Shown one piece after another: positions 1-41,130 of a stretch of DNA of 41,537 bases (its first letter is position 1; each line of letters starts with the position of its first letter). The translations under genes were made by a program, and so were the position numbers. Under the pieces are notes generated by a model. The model was not told the DNA's origin and did not search any database. It saw only the letters and a list, made by a program, of their open reading frames with translations. This stretch comes from Azospirillaceae bacterium (lineage in GTDB: Bacteria; Pseudomonadota; Alphaproteobacteria; Azospirillales; Azospirillaceae): NCBI GenBank assembly GCA_028281465.1, contig JANQJV010000402.1, forward strand, positions 1 to 41,537, read 5' to 3'.

Positions 1-89
1 GGACCGCCGCCATCTTGGCGGCCGGCCGCTGGGCGTGGTCCGGGCCGGCTGGAAGCCGGCGGTCCAGCCGGCAAGGAGGCCGGCGCTCC
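1..89. repeat. cluster of three REP-like hairpin units
   Basis: Three related hairpin units lie here. Unit 1 (1-22, +) has head GGACC, stem GCCGCC/GGCGGC and a 5-nt loop. Unit 2 (44-65, read on -) has head GGACC, stem GCCGGC/GCCGGC and a 5-nt loop. Unit 3 (67-89, read on -) has head GGAGC, stem GCCGGC/GCCGGC and a 6-nt loop. A fourth unit lies at 37555-37576. The head is nearly constant while the stems vary in a pairing-preserving way, which is the behaviour of REP/BIME palindromes. No RAYT transposase gene is in the window. Confidence 0.7.
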
Positions 90-182
90 GAAACAGGGCA
101 GCCCGAGGACCGGTCATTGTTTCGGGCCGTTGGTATTAGCCCACCGCTTCGAGCAAAACGGGACGTGATCGCCTGTCGATCA

Positions 183-194
183 TGATCAAGATCA
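183..194. promoter_or_regulatory. FNR/FixK-like palindrome, distal
   Basis: TGATCAAGATCA fits TGAT-N4-ATCA, the core of the FNR/FixK/Anr consensus TTGAT-N4-ATCAA. The outer bases do not match. It lies about 970 bp before rnfA, so it may serve a gene beyond the left edge or none at all. Confidence 0.25.
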
Positions 195-780
195 CCCAAA
201 CCAGCGACTTGGGTGTCCCTGGAGCCGGCTTACACCCTCCGCTTCGTCCATCCCAACCAAGGCGCGACGAACCGAGTCTTCATTGACGATCGTCGTCATC
301 CCTTGAAGCGCTCGGTTGTCGCCACCGCCAGGCAAGCCAATGCTGTGCGCCTATCAACAGAGACCAGGAAGGACCGAAAGTAATAACGTTTCAGGCACAT
401 CCACAATCCGTGGAGAATTGGCACGACCAAAAAAACAAGGGACACTCTGCCACCCAAGCCGCAAACCGGTGGTTGGCCGACAGGGTGACCAGAAATCATC
501 GATTTCGTCCGAGATAGACCAAGTCAAGACAATATATAGACGACCATCTCCGCATCCAGACCGCCGGATGTGCGATCGCCGCCCCTATTGCCGTCGTGCC
601 GAGGCGGCAGATGTGAGGCAATCGCACCGGTGTTCGGGTCCGTAGCCCCATTGTATCAACCGATCACCGAGCGGGGCTGTTTCGGCGTGCCGGCGTCAAG
701 CGAACGGGATTGCTGCCATCTTGCTGGTTGCTGGTTGGCGACAAGGAGCCGACTGGACGTCGGCGCCGCAGAGGTTTCCT

Positions 781-800
781 AACTCAGGCATGCCCGAGTT
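781..800. promoter_or_regulatory. interrupted 20-bp inverted repeat, possible operator
   Basis: Two 10-base arms, AACTCAGGCA and TGCCCGAGTT, are complementary at 9 of 10 positions and meet at the palindrome GGCATGCC. The repeat stands just before the AT-rich patch carrying a possible promoter, as an operator would. The binding protein is unknown. Confidence 0.3.
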
Positions 801-837
801 GGGTCAAGTATTTACAGATTATGGATTTTGTAAAAAA

Positions 838-867
838 TTGACTACGCTCAGCCGGGTAGATTTGTAA
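838..867 (+). promoter_or_regulatory. possible sigma-70-type promoter
   Basis: TTGACT at 838-843 and TTGTAA at 862-867 are separated by 18 bases in an AT-rich patch of an otherwise GC-rich region. TTTGTAAA occurs twice (827-834 and 861-868), with TTTACA at 811-816, so the promoter may overlap an operator. Transcription would run into the hairpin at 903-935. Confidence 0.3.
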
Positions 868-902
868 ATAGCTACACCAATTTTTCTCGGTATTTCAGTT
901 AT

Positions 903-935
903 CTGTGCGACACCCGGTCGCAGAGGGGTTTTTTT
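903..935 (+). terminator. terminator-like hairpin with T7 run
   Basis: CTGTGCGA (903-910) pairs with TCGCAGAG (918-925) at 7 of 8 positions across a 7-nt loop. It is followed by GGG and seven T (929-935). With the possible promoter at 838-867 this would give a transcript of about 60 nt, or an attenuated rnf leader. Confidence 0.45.
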
Positions 936-967
936 GTCGACACTGTATAGAGCTGCGGCGACATTGG

Positions 968-983
968 CGGCAGGCCGTCTGCT
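968..983 (+). promoter_or_regulatory. possible sigma-54 (-24/-12) promoter of rnf
   Basis: CGGCAGGCCGTCTGCT has GG (969-970) and GC (981-982) with the required 10-base spacing. It keeps GGCA and TGC of the TGGCAC-N5-TTGC consensus but departs from it at the first T, the C of CAC and the first T of TTGC. TGT-N10-ACC at 863-878 is one base short of the NifA site TGT-N10-ACA and lies at a plausible upstream distance. Rnf operons serving nitrogenase are NifA/sigma-54 controlled in some purple bacteria; the assignment here is inference from weak matches. Confidence 0.25.
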
Positions 984-1074
984 GGAATCCGTCCGAACCA
1001 CGTATGACAGTTGTGACTAGACAGTTAGAATGATGAATGCATAGGCAGGATGCGAACGAACTATGCACCGGCAA

Positions 1075-1092
1075 AAATGATCGAGATCATTT
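1075..1092. promoter_or_regulatory. FNR/FixK-like palindrome upstream of rnfA
   Basis: A perfect inverted repeat has 8-base arms, AAATGATC and GATCATTT, separated by GA. Inside it is TGAT-N4-ATCA, the core of FNR/FixK-type sites, although the outermost consensus T/A pair is swapped. The centre is about 84 bp before the rnfA start. Oxygen-responsive control of an Rnf/ferredoxin module would make sense, but the regulator is not visible. Confidence 0.45.
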
Positions 1093-1167
1093 CGCGCTTG
1101 CGGCATGGTTTGGTTTCTTAGCAAGCAGACGAGAATTGGAACTCCGAACGGAGGCTCAGGTGCTGCG

Positions 1168-1749
1168 ATGCAGGAGCTGGGGTTGGTGTTGATCGGCACC
1201 GCGTTGGTCAACAACGTGGTCTTGGTGAAGTTTCTCGGACTGTGCCCGCTCATCGGCACGTCGGGCAAACTCGACACGGCCGTGGGCATGGCCATGGCCG
1301 CGAGCTTCGTGCTTACCCTGTCGGCCGGCCTCGCATGGGCGATCGAGGCCATGCTCTTGGCACCATATGGTCTCGGTTACCTGCGCACAGTCACCTTCAT
1401 TCTGGTGATCGCTGCTGTCGTGCAGTTCACCGAGATGCTGGTTCGGCGGGTTTCGCAACCGTTGTATCGCGCACTTGGCATCTATTTGCCCTTGATCACC
1501 ACCAATTGTGCCGTCCTGGGTGTCGCCTTGCTCAACGTCAAAGCCGGCAACGGATTTCTTGACAGTGTGCTTTATGGCTTCGGTTCGGCGCTCGGCTTCG
1601 GGCTCATCCTCGTCATCTTCGCCGGGTTGCGCGAACGGCTCGAGCTGGCCGATGTGCCGGCTGCCTTCGCCGGGGCCCCAATCGCCTTCGTCGTTGCTGG
1701 CCTGTTGTCCCTGGCGTTCATGGGCTTCGCCGGCATCGGCACACCATAG
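1168..1749 (+). CDS. rnfA: Rnf complex membrane subunit RnfA
   Basis: RnfA is an integral membrane subunit of the Rnf complex, which couples NADH:ferredoxin electron transfer to ion flow across the cytoplasmic membrane. The 193-residue product has the family's exact usual length and about six hydrophobic segments. It opens [16 protein letters not shown] with the conserved [13 protein letters not shown] stretch, and [14 protein letters not shown] follows near residue 110; each half carries a cysteine expected to help bind the intramembrane iron centre shared with RnfE. The frame is open upstream to 1105, but the ATG at 1168 matches the family's N-terminus and has GGAGG at 1150-1154. It is first of seven tightly packed rnf genes; rnfB follows after 12 bases. 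Confidence 0.95.
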
Positions 1750-1761
1750 GAGACCGATGCC

Positions 1762-2433
1762 GTGCTGACCGCCATCCTCAGCCTCACCCTGCTGGGCGCC
1801 GGCTTTGGCCTGCTGCTGCGCCTGTCGGCTCGCTGGCTTGCCGTCGAGGGCAATCCTCTCCAAACGGAGCTGGAAGCGTTGCTCCCCGGTTCGCAATGTG
1901 GCCAATGCGGTCTGGCCGGTTGTCGGCAGGCGGCCGAGGCTTTGATCGAGGGCACGGTGCCGGTCACCGTGTGTCCACCGGGTGGGCGAGCCCTGGCGCA
2001 GACCTTGGCCGAGACCCTGGGTGTGCCGTTCGACCCCGCCGCTGTCGCGGATCCGGAGCCGCGAATCGCCATGATCAACGAGGCCGCCTGCCTCGGGTGC
2101 ATGCGCTGCATCCAGAAATGCAGCATCGACGCCATCGTGGGTGCCAACAAGCAGATGCACACGGTGTTGAACGAGGTCTGCAACGGCTGCGGGAGTTGTG
2201 TCGCGGAATGTCCGACTGGTGGAATCGCCCTGGTTGCTGTGCCTCAGTCGGTCGAAACCTGGCACTGGCATAAACCCGGCCGGACACCGCCGCCGCCGCC
2301 GGCCGATTTCTGGCATTGGCGCCGTCTGCGCTTCCGTCCCGGTCATACCTTGGGCAACCGACCGATCAACCACCCGCCACCGCCGGCTTTGTTGCGCGCA
2401 CAGCCGCAAACCCATGCGGGAGATCGGCCATGA
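1762..2433 (+). CDS. rnfB: Rnf complex ferredoxin-like subunit RnfB
   Basis: RnfB is the iron-sulfur subunit that passes electrons between soluble ferredoxin and the rest of Rnf. The 223-residue product has an N-terminal membrane anchor (about residues 1-25). A four-cysteine Fes cluster domain follows, starting SQCGQCGLAGC (C46, C49, C54), with a fourth cysteine in VCPPGG. Two ferredoxin-type [4Fe-4S] motifs come next: CLGCMRCIQKC from C110 and CNGCGSCVAEC from C140. A Pro/His/Trp-rich tail of roughly 45 residues extends beyond the cluster domain and makes it longer than the roughly 190-residue norm. The start is GTG at 1762, with AGGAGA overlapping the rnfA stop; an ATG at 1757 is out of frame and closes at once. 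Its stop overlaps the rnfC start (ATGA). Confidence 0.95.
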   Translation: MLTAILSLTLLGAGFGLLLRLSARWLAVEGNPLQTELEALLPGSQCGQCGLAGCRQAAEALIEGTVPVTVCPPGGRALAQTLAETLGVPFDPAAVADPEPRIAMINEAACLGCMRCIQKCSIDAIVGANKQMHTVLNEVCNGCGSCVAECPTGGIALVAVPQSVETWHWHKPGRTPPPPPADFWHWRRLRFRPGHTLGNRPINHPPPPALLRAQPQTHAGDRP

Positions 2434-3932
2434 AGCTATTCCGTATCCGCGGAGGCGTTGATGTCGCCCACCGCAAGGAGCTGTCGTCGGAAGAACCGAT
2501 CATGCCGTTGCCACTGCCGTCCCGGCTCTACGTGCCGCTGCGCCAGCATGGTGGTGCCCCGGCCGAACCGGTTGTATCGGTCGGCGACCGGGTCCTGAAA
2601 GGCCAGCTCCTGGCTGCGCCGCAAGGATCGGTGTCGGCTCCCGTGCACGCTCCGACATCGGGCGAAATCCTCAATATCGGGCGGCAGATCACGGCGCATC
2701 CGTCGGCGATTCCGCAGCCGACCATCGTTCTTGAATCCGATGGCTGCGAGGAATGGGTGGATTTGCCGCCACCGATCCGCGATCCATTCGCCGCGAGTGC
2801 CGCCAGCTTGGCCACACGGGTGGCCGACTGTGGCATCGTCGGTTTGGGTGGCGCGGCGTTTCCCACTGCGGTCAAGCTGGACGCCGCGGCAAGAGGCACC
2901 GTCGACACGTTGGTGATCAACGGTGCCGAATGCGAACCTTATCTCACGTGTGACGACCGCATCATGCGCGAGCGGGCGGGCGAGATCATCGACGGTGTGC
3001 GCATCATGGCCCATGCCCTGGGTGCCACGCGTATCGTCATCGCCATCGAACGCAACAAGCCGCAGGCGCTCGATACCATGACCCGGGCGGCCGATACGGT
3101 GGGCCCGGAAATCCTGATCGTCGCCATCCCCGCACGCTATCCCATGGGATCTGAACGCCATTTGGTGCTCCTGGTCACCGGGCGCGAAATTCCAGCCCGA
3201 CGGCTGCCGGCCGACGTGGGCGTGTCGGTGCACAACGTGGCGACCGCGCGCGCCGTGCACCGCGCCGTGCGCGTGGGGGAACCGCTGATCTCTCGGGTCA
3301 TGACCGTGAGCGGGGGTGCGGTGCGGCGCCCACGCAATCTGGAGGTGCCGATCGGCGCCCTCGTATGCGAGTTGCTGGATGCCGCCGGCGGCACAACCGA
3401 AGCACCGGCCCGCCTGCTCGCCGGTGGCCCCATGATGGGGCAGCCATTGCACAGTCTGGTGGTGCCCGTGGTCAAGGGCACCAGTGGGATTCTGGCGCTG
3501 GCAGCTTCCGAAATCCGCACTGCCCCCGAGCAAGGCTGCATCCGCTGTGGCACGTGCGTCAGCGTGTGTCCGTGCGGCTTGGTTCCCATGGAGATGGCGG
3601 CCCTGATCCGCCACGAGAAGCTTGAGCAGGCCGTGGCCGTCGGTCTGCACGATTGCGTGGCGTGCGGTAGCTGTGCCTACGCTTGCCCATCACATATTCC
3701 CCTTGTTCAATACTTTCACTACGCCAAAGGCCGACTGAAGCAACTTGGGCATGAGCAGCGTCGGCGTGACCTGGCCAGGCGGTTGGCGGCCAGTCGGGCA
3801 GAGCGGCTCGAGCGTATCGCGCGGGCCAAACGCGAGGCGGTAGCGGCTCGCAAGGCGGCTGCCGCGGCGAAGAAAGTGGCAGAGGCGCAGGCACATGGGG
3901 ATGGTCCGGTCGGATCGGCAGCCGGATCATGA
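2430..3932 (+). CDS. rnfC: Rnf complex NADH/FMN subunit RnfC
   Basis: RnfC is the peripheral subunit that oxidises or reduces NAD(H) through FMN and two [4Fe-4S] clusters. The 500-residue product starts MKLFRIRGGV. It has the Gly-rich GLGGAAFPTAVKL motif of the flavin/NADH-binding Nqo1-like fold and the INGAECEPYLTCD stretch. Two cluster motifs follow: CIRCGTCVSVCP from C370 and CVACGSCAYACP from C409. The last 60 residues are Ala/Lys/Arg-rich and probably helical, as in proteobacterial RnfC. The frame is open upstream of 2430, but the ATG overlapping the rnfB stop fits the family N-terminus and signals translational coupling; rnfD is coupled the same way at the 3' end. Confidence 0.95.
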   Translation: MKLFRIRGGVDVAHRKELSSEEPIMPLPLPSRLYVPLRQHGGAPAEPVVSVGDRVLKGQLLAAPQGSVSAPVHAPTSGEILNIGRQITAHPSAIPQPTIVLESDGCEEWVDLPPPIRDPFAASAASLATRVADCGIVGLGGAAFPTAVKLDAAARGTVDTLVINGAECEPYLTCDDRIMRERAGEIIDGVRIMAHALGATRIVIAIERNKPQALDTMTRAADTVGPEILIVAIPARYPMGSERHLVLLVTGREIPARRLPADVGVSVHNVATARAVHRAVRVGEPLISRVMTVSGGAVRRPRNLEVPIGALVCELLDAAGGTTEAPARLLAGGPMMGQPLHSLVVPVVKGTSGILALAASEIRTAPEQGCIRCGTCVSVCPCGLVPMEMAALIRHEKLEQAVAVGLHDCVACGSCAYACPSHIPLVQYFHYAKGRLKQLGHEQRRRDLARRLAASRAERLERIARAKREAVAARKAAAAAKKVAEAQAHGDGPVGSAAGS

Positions 3933-5014
3933 CTGCCGAAACGATTACCGAACCGAGTGGGCCGTACGCCCATGCCGACTGGAGCGTACGTCAAATCATG
4001 CTGCGGGTCATGGCCGCCCTTGTCCCCGCCACGGTGTTCAACGCCTGGGTGTTTGGCTGGCCGGCCGTGTTCCTGTTCGCCGTCACGGTGGCGGCGGCGC
4101 TGATCGCCGAGGCCATATGCCTTTGGCTCGCCGGGCGGCCGGTGGGTGCGTCGCTTGCCGATGGATCTGCAGCGTTGACCGCATGGCTCCTCGCTTTCAG
4201 TCTGCCACCTTACGCGCCTTGGTGGATTGGCATGGTCGGTGCCGTGATCGCCATCGTCATCGGCAAACACATCTTCGGTGGGTTGGGACAAAACCTGTTC
4301 AACCCGGCCATGGTTGCCCGGGTGGCGCTTTTGATCTCCTTCCCTGTACCCATGACACTGTACGTGTTGCCCACCGGCTTCGGGCTGTTGGCCGCTCCGC
4401 CCGGGTTTCTGGACGGTTTGGTCATTACATTCGGCGGTCAAGGGATTCCGGATGCACTCAGTGCTGCCACGGCGCTCAGTGCGGTCCAGACGCAGCTCGG
4501 CCTTGGTCAGCCCGCCACAGTGGCGGTGGCGTCGGCCGTAGCACCGTGGCGGATGGCCGCCGGGACGATGGCTGGCAGCCTGGGCGAGACCTCGGCCTTG
4601 TTGCTAGCCGCCGGTGGTGTGTACCTGTTGTGGGCGCGTGTTATCACCTGGCACGTTCCGGTCGCCTTGGCCGGGAGTATGGCGTTGCTATCCGGCTTGG
4701 CCAATGCCATCGATCCGGCACGGTTTCCCGGGGCGGACTTCACGCTCCTGACCGGTGCCACCGTGCTCGGGGCATTCTTCATCGCCACCGATCCGGTGAC
4801 GTCGCCGGTGACGCGGGGCGGTCAGTTGGTGTTCGGGGCGGGCTGCGGTCTGCTGAGCTGGGTCATCCGCAGCTTTGCTGGCTACCCGGAAGGTTTGGCC
4901 TTCGCGATCTTGTTGATGAATGCGGCGACGCCGTTGATCGACCGAGGCATGCGCCCCCGCGTGCACGGCCGCACGCGCCATGGCCGGCCGCTCACGCTCG
5001 AACGATTGCGGTGA
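3929..5014 (+). CDS. rnfD: Rnf complex membrane flavoprotein RnfD
   Basis: RnfD is a polytopic membrane subunit carrying covalent FMN. The 361-residue product has about nine to ten hydrophobic segments. The motif DALSAATALS places the acceptor threonine at T181, corresponding to the FMN-threonine site of NqrB/RnfD proteins. The ATG at 3929 overlaps the rnfC stop by four bases. The C-terminal sequence VIRSFAGYPEGLAFAILLMN is typical of RnfD. The product would sit in the membrane with RnfA and RnfE and pass electrons to RnfG's FMN. Confidence 0.94.
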   Translation: MTAETITEPSGPYAHADWSVRQIMLRVMAALVPATVFNAWVFGWPAVFLFAVTVAAALIAEAICLWLAGRPVGASLADGSAALTAWLLAFSLPPYAPWWIGMVGAVIAIVIGKHIFGGLGQNLFNPAMVARVALLISFPVPMTLYVLPTGFGLLAAPPGFLDGLVITFGGQGIPDALSAATALSAVQTQLGLGQPATVAVASAVAPWRMAAGTMAGSLGETSALLLAAGGVYLLWARVITWHVPVALAGSMALLSGLANAIDPARFPGADFTLLTGATVLGAFFIATDPVTSPVTRGGQLVFGAGCGLLSWVIRSFAGYPEGLAFAILLMNAATPLIDRGMRPRVHGRTRHGRPLTLERLR

Positions 5015-36840: not shown

Positions 36841-36886
36841 CCGGTGGCTGGGGGTGGCTGTGCCGCCGCGGTGCCGATGGTCAAGC

Positions 36887-36915
36887 TTGACAGTAAGGAT
36901 CGGTTAAGCTCTGTT
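36887..36915 (+). promoter_or_regulatory. possible promoter of the small hypothetical gene
   Basis: TTGACA (36887-36892), a perfect -35, is followed 17 bases later by TCTGTT (36910-36915), a weak -10. It overlaps the 10-bp palindrome TCAAGCTTGA (36881-36890). A start of transcription near 36922 fits the ATG at 36964 rather than earlier in-frame starts. Confidence 0.4.
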
Positions 36916-36963
36916 CGGGCAACCTTCGGCCATGGGCTGCGACGGCCCGACGCGGAGACGGGG

Positions 36964-37356
36964 ATGGGTGTGTCGGCGGATTTATCATTGTCGCTGGACG
37001 ACAACCGAACCTTGCAGGCCATCGGAATCTTAGCTGATGTGCTGGACGGTTTATCTGGGCCGAGCGTACTTGATACCGTTCTCGTATCTAAGGCGCTCCG
37101 CCAGGTTATTGCCACACGATCCCGGCCCGCCTACGATTTTGCCTCTCGTGCCTTTTCCACTCTGGAACCTGATATCAAACGCCAGGTGGCGCACGACGCC
37201 GACGTGGCGGCCCGGGAGGCTGTTGAGCTGCGAGGTCGCGTGGCGGGCTTCTTGCGCGATGCTCCCAAACGGCCGGTTCGGGACTCAGGGTCAAGTCTTC
37301 TCAATGCCTTGAACACGCGGACGCGGCGCCCGTCGAAACGCGAGCCCGACGGCTAA
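36964..37356 (+). CDS. small hypothetical protein
   Basis: A 130-residue soluble protein I do not recognise. It appears largely helical (LDDNRTLQAIGILADVLDGL, SKALRQVIATRSRPAYDFASRAFSTLEPDIKRQV, DVAAREAVELRGRVAGFL) and ends in an Arg/Lys-rich tail. It has no signal peptide, membrane segment or cysteine. ATG at 36964 follows GGAG and a possible promoter; a GTG at 36844 is in frame, but that extension is Gly/Ala-rich and precedes the promoter. Coding is supported by a sustained frame and composition only. Confidence 0.6.
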   Translation: MGVSADLSLSLDDNRTLQAIGILADVLDGLSGPSVLDTVLVSKALRQVIATRSRPAYDFASRAFSTLEPDIKRQVAHDADVAAREAVELRGRVAGFLRDAPKRPVRDSGSSLLNALNTRTRRPSKREPDG

Positions 37357-37619: not shown

Positions 37620-38588
37620 TCAACCAAATCGTGGATCAACCGGACCGGCTCTGAGCCCCTGCCCGCTCAACGGCTCCACGTCGACCTGAACGGTGAGAAC
37701 GTGCTGGGCCCCGCCTTGCACAACGCCGCGCACCGGGCTGACGTCGTGGTAGTCCCGTCCCCAGGCAAGGGTGATGTAGTCGGTGTCGGCCAGGCGGTCG
37801 TTGGTCGGGCAGAAGTCGACCCAGGTGCCGTCGCCGCACCACACCGACGCCCAAGCATGGCTGACATCTGCGCCAACCAGGCGTGGCTGCCCGGGCGGGG
37901 GCAGCGTGCGCAGGTAACCGCTGACATAGCGTGCCGGTAGCCCCATAACACGCAGGCAGCCAATGAACAGGTGAGCGAAATCCTGGCAAACGCCGCGCCG
38001 GTCAGCCAAGACCTCCTCGAGCGGCGTCGCGACCGTGGTCGCCGTTGGGTCGAAAGTAAAGTCGGCATGGATGCGCGCCTGAAGGTCGCGGGCCGCCAGG
38101 CCGACTGGCCGACCGGCGAGGAACGACGGCGCGGCATAATCGGCTAGCGCAGCATCGAGCCGAACGTATGGACTGTCGCAGACATAGGGGTCGACGGCCC
38201 CGGCCGGGAAGCCAACGCTGCCATGGCCAACCCGCAGCCGGTCGCGCATCCGCTCCCAGATCGGCGTGGTGGCCAAATCGGGGACCGGCGCCGCGAAGAC
38301 GGTGATCTCGCTTTCGGCGGTGATGGCGAGCTGACGATGCGGTGCACGGACTTCGAGATAGGTCACCGGATTGCTGAAGAAATCGGCAAAATCTAACCGT
38401 TGCGCCGGTATCGGATCGATCACCACGGTACTCCGACGGATGCGCTGGCGTCCGTGGCCACGGGCCTGAAGGTGCGTCATGTGATGCGAGAACGATACCT
38501 CATCGCCATAGGCATAGCGCGTGGTGTGCCGGATGCGGTACGTCTCGGCCACTGCGTGGCGTGGCTCAGGCGCTTCGGGCAAAGGCAT
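37620..38588 (-). CDS. transglutaminase-like cysteine peptidase family protein
   Basis: A 322-residue cytosolic protein with an N-terminal Bact_transglu_N domain (YRIRHTTRYAYGDEVSFSHH, about 15-100) and a transglutaminase core. The catalytic triad is visible: C201 in RRGVCQDFAHLF, H244 in DVSHAWASVW and D258 in WVDFCPTND. In bacteria this family is encoded with ATP-grasp and alpha-E proteins and is predicted to cut or cross-link peptides; no product has been established to my knowledge. The ATG at 38588 overlaps the end of the ATP-grasp/alpha-E gene by 23 bp, so the two are co-expressed. GTG at 38552 is a non-overlapping alternative. Confidence 0.9.
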   Translation of the reverse strand: MPLPEAPEPRHAVAETYRIRHTTRYAYGDEVSFSHHMTHLQARGHGRQRIRRSTVVIDPIPAQRLDFADFFSNPVTYLEVRAPHRQLAITAESEITVFAAPVPDLATTPIWERMRDRLRVGHGSVGFPAGAVDPYVCDSPYVRLDAALADYAAPSFLAGRPVGLAARDLQARIHADFTFDPTATTVATPLEEVLADRRGVCQDFAHLFIGCLRVMGLPARYVSGYLRTLPPPGQPRLVGADVSHAWASVWCGDGTWVDFCPTNDRLADTDYITLAWGRDYHDVSPVRGVVQGGAQHVLTVQVDVEPLSGQGLRAGPVDPRFG

Positions 38589-41130
38589 GGCTGAAATAGG
38601 CGTGTGCCAGGATGTTGGAGACATCCGGCATGGTTGCGTCCAACAGATCGAGTACCTCCCGCAAGGGTTCGGGCGCGCGCAGCAGGTCCGGTCTTTGCAA
38701 GGCCTCGCGGGCCTGCGCCACCAGAGTGCGCGCCGCCTCCATGGGACCACCGGCGGCGCGCGACGCCACCTGTGGCTCGGGCAGATGGTCGAAATGCCGA
38801 TGCAGCAAATTCAGTTGATACGCCATGCCGCGTGGATTGGCGTCGAAACGCACCAGCAGTTCCAGGACTGAAGCCCACTGCGCCGTCGTGAAATAGCGCT
38901 GTCGATAAGCCATGACGCTCTCGAATAGCTCCAAGACCAAATCCAGCACGGCCGTATCGGCATTGCGCCGCTGCAGCGCCGGGTCGGCCACCTTGAGACC
39001 GCGCAGCAGTCCGACGCCGTGCAAGGTTCGCTCCAATCGATGGCCAATGTCCAGGAACCGCCATCCGGCGCCGCGGATCATGCTCTCCTGCTCCAGCCCG
39101 GCCAACGCAGCCAGGCTGACCATCAAATCGTCCAGGCGCAGCAGCAGAGCGGCCAGGTCCGAAGGCCGGGGGGCCGATTGGCTCAACCGATCGATCTGTG
39201 CAACGACACGCCAGAGGTCGAGCGACAGACGGTCACGCACCGAGTGGGCCGCCCGATAGAGACGCAGGATATTGGCACGCAAGCTGTTCGGGTGCTGGCC
39301 GTCGAACAAGGCCGCATGTAAGGCGACGCGCACAGTCCGGTCAACGGCGCTGCCCCCGGTGGCGGCCAGATCTTGAGGAACCATGCCGAACCAGGCCATC
39401 AAGCCGAACAAATGCCGCACCTCACCCCGTGTGCCGGGTTGGTCGGGATCGTGCAAGCGACCATGAACCGCACGGAGCAGGCGCACCCACCCTTCGGTCC
39501 GCTCGGCGTATCGGCCGAACCAGAATAGTCCGTCGGCAACCCGACTGGGAAGATCGGCACCGAGCATACGTCGGCGCGTCACCGGGAGATCGACCAGGCG
39601 GGCCCGCCGGACCGGATGCAGGCGCCCAAGATCCGCCGTCGCCGTGCGTTGCCCGGTCAGAACCCAGGTGTCCTTGCTGCGTCCGCCGTGCTGCATGGAC
39701 ACCACCGGCGATTGTTCGGCCTGGGAAAGCCTCGTCAACCCCCCGGGCATGGCGAGAAAACCATCCGGGCCACGCGCCACAAACACGCGCAGAGTCATGG
39801 GCCTGGGTTCCAGCCGGTCGTTCTCCCAGGTCGGGATCGTTGATAGGGCGATCGGTTCCTGGCCCACAAAATCCCACGGCCGTCGCTCCAACCGCTCAAG
39901 CAACGACGCACGCTCGGCCGACGGTAGATCAGCCGGAAACACGGGTTCGACCGCTAAGCCACGGTTGGCCGGCTTGAGGACCAGACGATCCAGATGGGCT
40001 CGCAGATGACTGAGACCGGCGCCGTGGCCGCCCCACCACGTCGCTGCTCCCGGCAAAACAAGATCCTCCCCCAAAAGATGCCGGCACAAAGAGGGCAAGA
40101 AAGCGAGCAGTGCGGACGATTCCAGAATGCCGGTGCCCAGCGCATTGCACACCGCCACATTGCCCGACCGGGCCGCCTGGGTGAGCCCAGCAACGCCGAG
40201 CACGCTATCCGACCGCAGCTCCAGCGGATCACAGAAATCGTCGTCAAGGCGGCGCAGGATCACATCGACGGGTTCCAAACCCTGGAGCGTCTTCAGGTGG
40301 ACGCGGCAATCCCGAACCAGAAGATCGGCACCCTCGACCAGCGTCAACCCCAGGTGCCGGGCCAGGAAGGCATGCTCGAAATAGGTCTCGTTGTATGGGC
40401 CGGGAGTTAAGAGAACGGCGCGGAGGTCGTCGCCACGCGCACCGAGCCGATACAGGCCATCGCGAGCTGCCGTGAAGAACGGCACCAGCCGCACCACGTC
40501 ACAAGCACGGAAACTGTCGGGCAGGACCTGGCTTGTGACGATACGGTTCTCCAGCGCATACCCGGCGCCACTAGGGGTATTGGTTCGGTCCGACAACACC
40601 CACCAGCACCCGTCGCGCCGGCGTACCAAATCCGCGCTATACAGGAACAGCCAAGCATCACCGGCCGGGCGCAGACCATGTGCCGGGCGCAGAAAGCCGG
40701 GATCACCGTGCACCAGGCGCGGCGGCAACCGCCCAGACCGCAGCAAAGACTGTGGCCCGTACAGGTCGGCGGCCACGGCATCCAGCAGGCGGGCGCGTTG
40801 CAGTACACCGGCCTCAATGTGTCGCCATTCGTCGGCCGACAGCAGCAACGGGATCAAATCGAGCGGCCACAGGCGCTCCAGGCCGCGCTGGTCGTCGTAA
40901 ACGTTATAGGTAACGCCGTTTTGCCGGATCAGACGCAGCGCCTCATCCCAGCGCTCGTCCATCACAGCTTTGGTCAACGGTCCGGCCGAGCCGATGAAAC
41001 GCTGCCAATGCGGCCGGATATGGCCATGCCCAGCCACCATCTCGTCGTAGACGTCCAGTGGCACCGGCGATGCGTCCACACCCGGAGTCTCGGCCGGACC
41101 GGCAAGATGCTGGGGCTGCGAGTCGTCCAC
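38566..41130 (-). CDS. fused circularly permuted ATP-grasp (type 2) and alpha-E protein
   Basis: An 854-residue fusion. Residues about 1-510 are a circularly permuted ATP-grasp domain (YDEMVAGHGHIRPHWQRF, LDLIPLLLSADEWRHIEAGV, LLTPGPYNETYFEHAFLARH, NALGTGILESSALLAFLP, LVLKPANRGLAV), a predicted ATP-dependent carboxylate-amine ligase. Residues about 525-854 are an alpha-E domain (LPSRVADGLFWFGRYAERTE), an all-helical module of unknown activity. The two are often separate neighbouring genes; here they are one polypeptide. With the overlapping transglutaminase they form the core of a predicted peptide-tagging or peptide-synthesis system. The start is a GTG at 41130, so translation may be modest. 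Confidence 0.9.
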   Translation of the reverse strand: MDDSQPQHLAGPAETPGVDASPVPLDVYDEMVAGHGHIRPHWQRFIGSAGPLTKAVMDERWDEALRLIRQNGVTYNVYDDQRGLERLWPLDLIPLLLSADEWRHIEAGVLQRARLLDAVAADLYGPQSLLRSGRLPPRLVHGDPGFLRPAHGLRPAGDAWLFLYSADLVRRRDGCWWVLSDRTNTPSGAGYALENRIVTSQVLPDSFRACDVVRLVPFFTAARDGLYRLGARGDDLRAVLLTPGPYNETYFEHAFLARHLGLTLVEGADLLVRDCRVHLKTLQGLEPVDVILRRLDDDFCDPLELRSDSVLGVAGLTQAARSGNVAVCNALGTGILESSALLAFLPSLCRHLLGEDLVLPGAATWWGGHGAGLSHLRAHLDRLVLKPANRGLAVEPVFPADLPSAERASLLERLERRPWDFVGQEPIALSTIPTWENDRLEPRPMTLRVFVARGPDGFLAMPGGLTRLSQAEQSPVVSMQHGGRSKDTWVLTGQRTATADLGRLHPVRRARLVDLPVTRRRMLGADLPSRVADGLFWFGRYAERTEGWVRLLRAVHGRLHDPDQPGTRGEVRHLFGLMAWFGMVPQDLAATGGSAVDRTVRVALHAALFDGQHPNSLRANILRLYRAAHSVRDRLSLDLWRVVAQIDRLSQSAPRPSDLAALLLRLDDLMVSLAALAGLEQESMIRGAGWRFLDIGHRLERTLHGVGLLRGLKVADPALQRRNADTAVLDLVLELFESVMAYRQRYFTTAQWASVLELLVRFDANPRGMAYQLNLLHRHFDHLPEPQVASRAAGGPMEAARTLVAQAREALQRPDLLRAPEPLREVLDLLDATMPDVSNILAHAYFSHAFARSA

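Follow-up and report, generated by a model that had tools for sequence, protein, structure and literature searches.

A catalytically degenerate ATP-grasp domain fused to Alpha-E: a candidate pseudo-ligase of the TG-DUF2126 operon type in an Azospirillaceae bacterium

Is a protein that joins a circularly permuted ATP-grasp domain to an Alpha-E domain still a ligase, and if not, which enzyme might it serve? This question is raised by a locus in the genome of an Azospirillaceae bacterium (6.33 Mb in 426 contigs, estimated 97.5% complete), namely by a gene at 38566..41130 on the minus strand of the stretch of 41,537 bases that was analysed here, which is an entire contig (C115) and which we call the window. 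Sets of genes for ATP-grasp, Alpha-E, transglutaminase and Anbu proteins are found in many bacterial phyla, without a known product, and according to PMC5666114 and PMC6376114, Iyer and colleagues predicted that this group makes or modifies peptides. The original prediction for the locus, made from its sequence, placed the proteins in this grouping and regarded the product of the system as unknown; the proteins do belong there, and no product is reported in the literature that we searched. It also took the fused protein for a ligase, and here our view is a different one. Namely, from comparisons of sequences we propose, with a probability of roughly 55%, that in the fused protein Alpha-E is attached to an ATP-grasp pseudo-ligase, conserved and catalytically degenerate, that the protein belongs to an operon type in which a gene for a transglutaminase-DUF2126 protein (TG-DUF2126), the fused gene and a gene for a transglutaminase-family protein (TGase) follow one another, and that it has a non-catalytic role.

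The presence of both domains in one protein, and the overlap of its gene with that of the TGase, are real, given that the reading frames overlap and that the profiles match. Starting from the GTG at 41130, the protein has at most 854 amino acids, with further in-frame starts at 41079, 41064 and 41040. Its circularly permuted ATP-grasp domain (residues 25-492; 39655..41058, minus strand) matches CP_ATPgrasp_2 with an E-value of 2.1e-143 over residues 94-468, covering positions 1-373 of the 374 in the profile (CP_ATPgrasp, Pfam PF14403/PF04174), and "circularly permuted type 2 ATP-grasp protein" is the RefSeq name for proteins of this kind. Structure prediction, which had been suggested as a check, yielded a confident model of the fusion (predicted local distance difference test, pLDDT, 86.6; predicted template modelling score, pTM, 0.86). 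Compared by VIA-align, this model matches 3n6x with a Z-score of 39.0 (447 residues aligned, 3.3 Å), human and yeast glutathione synthetases with Z of about 24, YgiC with Z of 23 and Gss with Z of 20-21. Judging from the model, the fused domain retains the fold of the glutathione synthetase/GspS/YgiC type.

What the fused lineage has lost becomes visible when 116 fused and 37 split (i.e. standalone) ATP-grasp sequences are aligned together with 3n6x. In the E-x-N motif, Glu and Asn are invariant in 37 of the 37 split sequences and occur together in none of the 116 fused ones; the protein of the window carries S180-D181-R182 at this metal-site position (40585..40593, minus strand), and an Arg at position 182 is common to 111 of the 116. 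Similarly, the glycine positions of the ATP loop, which are 100% conserved in the split set, are gone from the fused set. In the window, the degenerate loop (residues 384-395, VLKPANRGLAVE; 39946..39981, minus strand) reads KPANRGLAVE as against KPVGESGGYG in the split forms, with Lys386 present and the glycines gone, and the lysine itself is found in 64 of the 116 fused sequences. Compared by profile with Gss, YgiC and YjfC of E. coli, the split forms align their Asp, Glu and Asn with D318, E330 and N332 of Gss (P 0.048, weak on its own), residues that we take to be the magnesium ligands of that enzyme.

Moreover, the loss is uneven along the domain. Counting those polar or glycine positions that are invariant in the split forms, the fused sequences keep (in at least 80% of cases) 1 of 11 in the Lys/Gly loop, 10 of 21 in the C-terminal ATP motif and 4 of 9 in the E-x-N region, as opposed to 10 of 14 in the N-terminal region and 18 of 23 in the central one. 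Because the kept fractions are lower there, the loss falls mainly on those regions in which nucleotide binding is expected. What is more, the fused family has invariants of its own, including R112, D122, R196, E252, D269, R293, D301, N329, R448 and D487, which suggests that it is constrained and not decaying, and argues for a retained non-catalytic role. As far as the alignments and the model go, the E-x-N motif and the ATP loop have been lost from the fused lineage, and what remains is the fold, together with the Alpha-E signature and a set of invariants specific to that lineage. With both sites absent here and kept by all split relatives, the description of the protein as a ligase is not supported; the loss of the catalytic residues on alignment is also what the original prediction had itself named as speaking against it. 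The Pfam text for PF04174 already notes that inactive ATP-grasps frequently form the N-terminal part of fusions with Alpha-E, and we regard the degeneracy of the fused form as a confirmation and a measurement rather than a discovery.

Could the domain be an active amide ligase all the same, one that uses a rebuilt metal/ATP site composed of D167, D181, K386, R448, K486 and D487? The strength of the family profile match, the kept fold and the several charged residues retained in the C-terminal ATP motif are what one would expect of such an enzyme, whereas the absence of the Glu-Asn pair from every fused sequence, the nearly general replacement of Asn by Arg, and the disappearance of a glycine-rich loop whose lysine survives in just over half of the sequences are not, and we consider this explanation unlikely.

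The second half of the pseudo-ligase, the Alpha-E domain (PF04168; residues 527-846; 38593..39552, minus strand), was matched with an E-value of 2.6e-60. Both of its ER motifs (W537..R540..E543-R544 and G696..E700-R701) are conserved in fused and split proteins alike, and when modelled alone it is all-helical, with a pLDDT of 91.3. A Foldseek search with Alpha-E against solved structures gave no match at E < 0.1. The best VIA-align matches were to cytochrome bd and similar bundles, with a Z of about 10 at a root-mean-square deviation of 7 Å, which lies under the level trusted for helical bundles. It had been suggested that the Alpha-E part works directly on the substrate or product of the ligase, an idea that is weakened if the fused ATP-grasp domain makes no product.

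How old and how widespread is the fused form? A single peptide pattern led to at least 587 encoded relatives, and the 80 that we kept include Acidobacteria, Verrucomicrobia, Planctomycetes, Myxococcales and Proteobacteria, the closest named ones being from Azospirillum (55-57%). In a tree of 93 ATP-grasp domains, built by a quick method and with long branches for some of the fused rows, the fused and split forms fall on opposite sides of a single branch with a support of 100, and we therefore regard the fused protein as an old pseudo-ligase and not as a new fusion. The fusion as such, which had been presented as the point of interest, is an old and widespread architecture. In a class sample of 241 genomes (Alphaproteobacteria), in which 40 fused loci were read in addition to the 80 named loci from the peptide-pattern search, the fused form is present in 41 genomes, and 40 of these also have the split form, with its Alpha-E gene (p 2e-17).

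Which protein, then, does the pseudo-ligase accompany? The gene regularly found beside the fused one is that of TG-DUF2126 and not Anbu, on which the emphasis had previously been placed. DUF2126-type proteins have been described as fusions of two domains, one transglutaminase-like and the other a carboxylate-amine ligase (PMC2588565). In the usual order of TG-DUF2126, fused gene and TGase, DUF2126 stands upstream of the fused gene in 31 of 40 class loci and 64 of 80 named ones, and the TGase follows it in all 40 class loci and in 79 of the 80 named ones. The fused form and DUF2126 occur together in 34 genomes of the class sample, the fused form by itself in 7 and DUF2126 by itself in 5 (n = 241; Fisher p 4e-29). 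Read from the genomes, the fused form is nearly always accompanied by intact split genes and usually by TG-DUF2126. DUF2126 is also the better conserved of the two, with a mean column identity of 63% versus 42% for the fused protein; compared with sequences in the Protein Data Bank, it gives a convincing match for its transglutaminase domain only, and not for its ligase domain. The window fits the operon type in one respect, namely the TGase gene follows the fused gene on the same strand and overlaps it. Upstream of the fused gene, 407 bases are left before the contig ends and, the window being the entire contig, the sequence further upstream is unseen. In this genome, TG-DUF2126 lies on contig C195 (positions 1-4360, 4.36 kb, full profile match), and no 12-mers are shared between C195 and the end of the window contig.

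Some further features of these neighbourhoods may be recorded here. C195 has related repeats at both of its ends, and the same repeats recur where the window contig begins; by eye, a short open reading frame (ORF) 3' of TG-DUF2126 resembles a remnant of an IS3-type transposase. In another genome of the same family, DUF2126 and the fused gene are separated by a lipoprotein-like ORF of 672 residues that has a CASCH haem motif (L014, 11132-13150, minus strand). In Caballeronia, the DUF2126 operon and the split pair have a putative zinc-binding metallopeptidase (L149, 1240-2301) between them, and its relatives adjoin 7 other loci; a search with PF15887 for such metallopeptidases had no match in this genome and none in the control genomes either.

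Several points weigh against a non-catalytic role next to DUF2126. The assignment of the E-x-N Glu and Asn as metal ligands rests on a short and weak profile match to Gss (P 0.048), on agreement with the residues taken as ligands in Gss, and on the shared fold. Lys386, Arg448, Lys486 and Asp487 are all present in the window copy, and weak nucleotide binding is therefore possible; no biochemistry on the fused form was found in the literature searched. In addition, 7 of the 41 fused genomes have no DUF2126 match, and in our genome DUF2126 is on another contig than the fused gene. Even so, the fused protein is probably a helper of the DUF2126 system, i.e. a non-catalytic substrate-binding or scaffold subunit. 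In such an arrangement, the pseudo-ligase would bind a peptide or gamma-glutamyl-type substrate, or else a product or a partner enzyme, without ATP chemistry, and would present what it has bound to the DUF2126 ligase and the TGase. The former would form an amide bond, the latter would cleave or transfer one, and Alpha-E may act as a docking platform common to the fused and split modules.

Alternatively, the fused protein could serve the split, active ATP-grasp/Alpha-E enzyme as a regulatory or structural subunit, in hetero-oligomers of pseudo-ligase and ligase, and not DUF2126. This would agree with the co-occurrence in 40 of 41 genomes, and the split pair indeed directly adjoins the fused operon in several loci (L020, L028, L030, L046, L052, L053 and Caballeronia). 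The split ATP-grasp from Yersinia bercovieri (YbATP-grasp) released phosphate from ATP in vitro (PMC6376114). However, the fused gene adjoins DUF2126 and the TGase more often than it does the split pair, in our genome the fused gene and the split pair are on different contigs, and no complexes between Anbu and the other proteins of the split operon were detected in Y. bercovieri (PMC6376114), so that we find a partnership with the split enzyme rather improbable. The split ATP-grasp and Alpha-E genes of this genome are on C98, with a second TGase on C190. The ORF that comes after the split pair (L002, 2479-3240) looks, by eye, like a member of the Bpt/arginyl-transferase family of the N-degron pathway.

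As had been stated, no Anbu gene was found in the window. A search outside it, which had been recommended, did turn up an Anbu gene, at 38780-39556 of contig C292 (L065, 8550-9572), and this gene is an orphan, with no partner genes of the set within 16 kb around it on that contig. It was found by a protein query, whereas the search of the genome with Pfam PF00227 matched HslV only (the score of the Anbu protein against PF00227 is 32 bits, and no one stretch of it passes). Anbu genes that come right after a split Alpha-E gene were seen several times in the class sample, and the 40 fused loci read there had no Anbu nearby; of the 80 named loci, 10 have Anbu within the flank.

The TGase gene (37620..38588, minus strand) matches Bact_transglu_N (1.9e-22) and Transglut_core (3.1e-19). 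Its longest ORF starts with the GTG at 38750, the TGase domain begins well inside that ORF, and the likely start is the ATG at 38588, which gives an overlap of 23 nucleotides with the fused gene. The transglutaminase had been described as having an intact triad, which is not confirmed. Namely, the catalytic Cys (37986..37988, in GVCQDFAH, aligned with GVCRDFAH of 3isr) and the His (37857..37859, in SHAW, from the alignment of relatives) are present, and the place of the Asp is taken by a Cys (TGC at 37809..37811, WVDFCPTN versus WxxxDPTN; all minus strand). In an alignment of 121 TGases this residue is Asp in 115 and Cys in 6, and the six are confined to the window protein and five relatives from Azospirillaceae (four from Azospirillum, L066-L069, and one from the same-family genome, L014). 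A sequencing error is unlikely, since the change from Asp to Cys requires two codon substitutions and recurs in independent genomes, and the chemistry of the Azospirillaceae TGase may therefore be weakened or altered. The replacement is a small, lineage-specific and testable oddity. One could go further and imagine that in Azospirillaceae the operon has turned largely non-catalytic, and that the pseudo-ligase and the Asp-less TGase form a peptide-sensing or scaffold complex that controls the DUF2126 ligase and the orphan Anbu and makes no product, which we regard as a long shot. On its other side, the TGase is separated from a gene for an EamA transporter by an ORF of 170 residues (36844-37356, plus strand) that has no match in Pfam or NCBIfam.

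Does the operon build peptides, or does it take them apart? We take Rv2569c of M. tuberculosis to be the counterpart of the TGase. Rv2569c has been reported as a protease, and its inhibition is of the serine type, which is at odds with a Cys-His transglutaminase fold (PMC11081392). If the TGase is a protease or amidase, the operon could degrade or remodel peptides, for instance in nitrogen recovery, rather than build them, and the zinc metallopeptidase that joins some loci would be in keeping with this. In Burkholderia cenocepacia, a study of the NtrC regulon lists the split genes BCAM1233/1234 with an 8- to 9-fold decrease (PMC5491218); in P. putida, Anbu goes up when nitrogen is limiting (as cited in PMC5666114); and in marine metagenomes, domains of the set vary together with urea metabolism (PMC3597751). 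From the regulon listing and the urea co-variation, a nitrogen-related role is possible; however, these regulatory data come from the split type, and no matching regulatory site was found here. In particular, no site of the sigma-54/NtrC type precedes the fused gene of the window, nor any of 118 fused genes of relatives, and elsewhere among the relatives the counts were small, without a clear excess. Given also that the operon has a conserved predicted amidoligase in DUF2126, a degradative operon seems doubtful to us. Returning to the pseudo-ligase and its probable role as a helper of DUF2126, the practical meaning is that, with the fused form as a distinct lineage that has TG-DUF2126 for a partner, the search for the active ligase would shift to DUF2126 and the split ATP-grasp, and that one should be wary of assaying the fused protein as a ligase.

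How does the locus compare with known systems? Nearest to it is the fused form of the DUF2126 operon, e.g. WP_206470820.1 of Caballeronia, with which the window protein has in common its architecture, its neighbours and the loss of E-x-N; the differences are that here DUF2126 is on another contig and that the TGase has a Cys for the Asp of the triad. Rv2567 of M. tuberculosis is presumably also a fused circularly permuted ATP-grasp/Alpha-E protein of the DUF2126 operon. The Anbu operon, made up of split ATP-grasp, Alpha-E, TGase and Anbu, shares with the window set the ATP-grasp fold, the Alpha-E with its ER motifs and the TGase; its ATP-grasp keeps E-x-N and the glycine loop, with the genes separate and Anbu adjacent, whereas in the window protein the two domains are fused and E-x-N is absent. 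Among solved structures, the closest to the fused domain is 3n6x, a putative glutathionylspermidine synthase from Methylobacillus flagellatus (33% identity), which groups with the split forms in the tree, keeps the motif as E161/N163 and was crystallised as a chain without Alpha-E. Finally, Gss, YgiC/YjfC and the eukaryotic glutathione synthetases have the overall fold of the window domain (Z 20-25) at about 8-16% identity, and E330/N332 of Gss correspond, by the weak profile match, to S180/R182 of the window protein.

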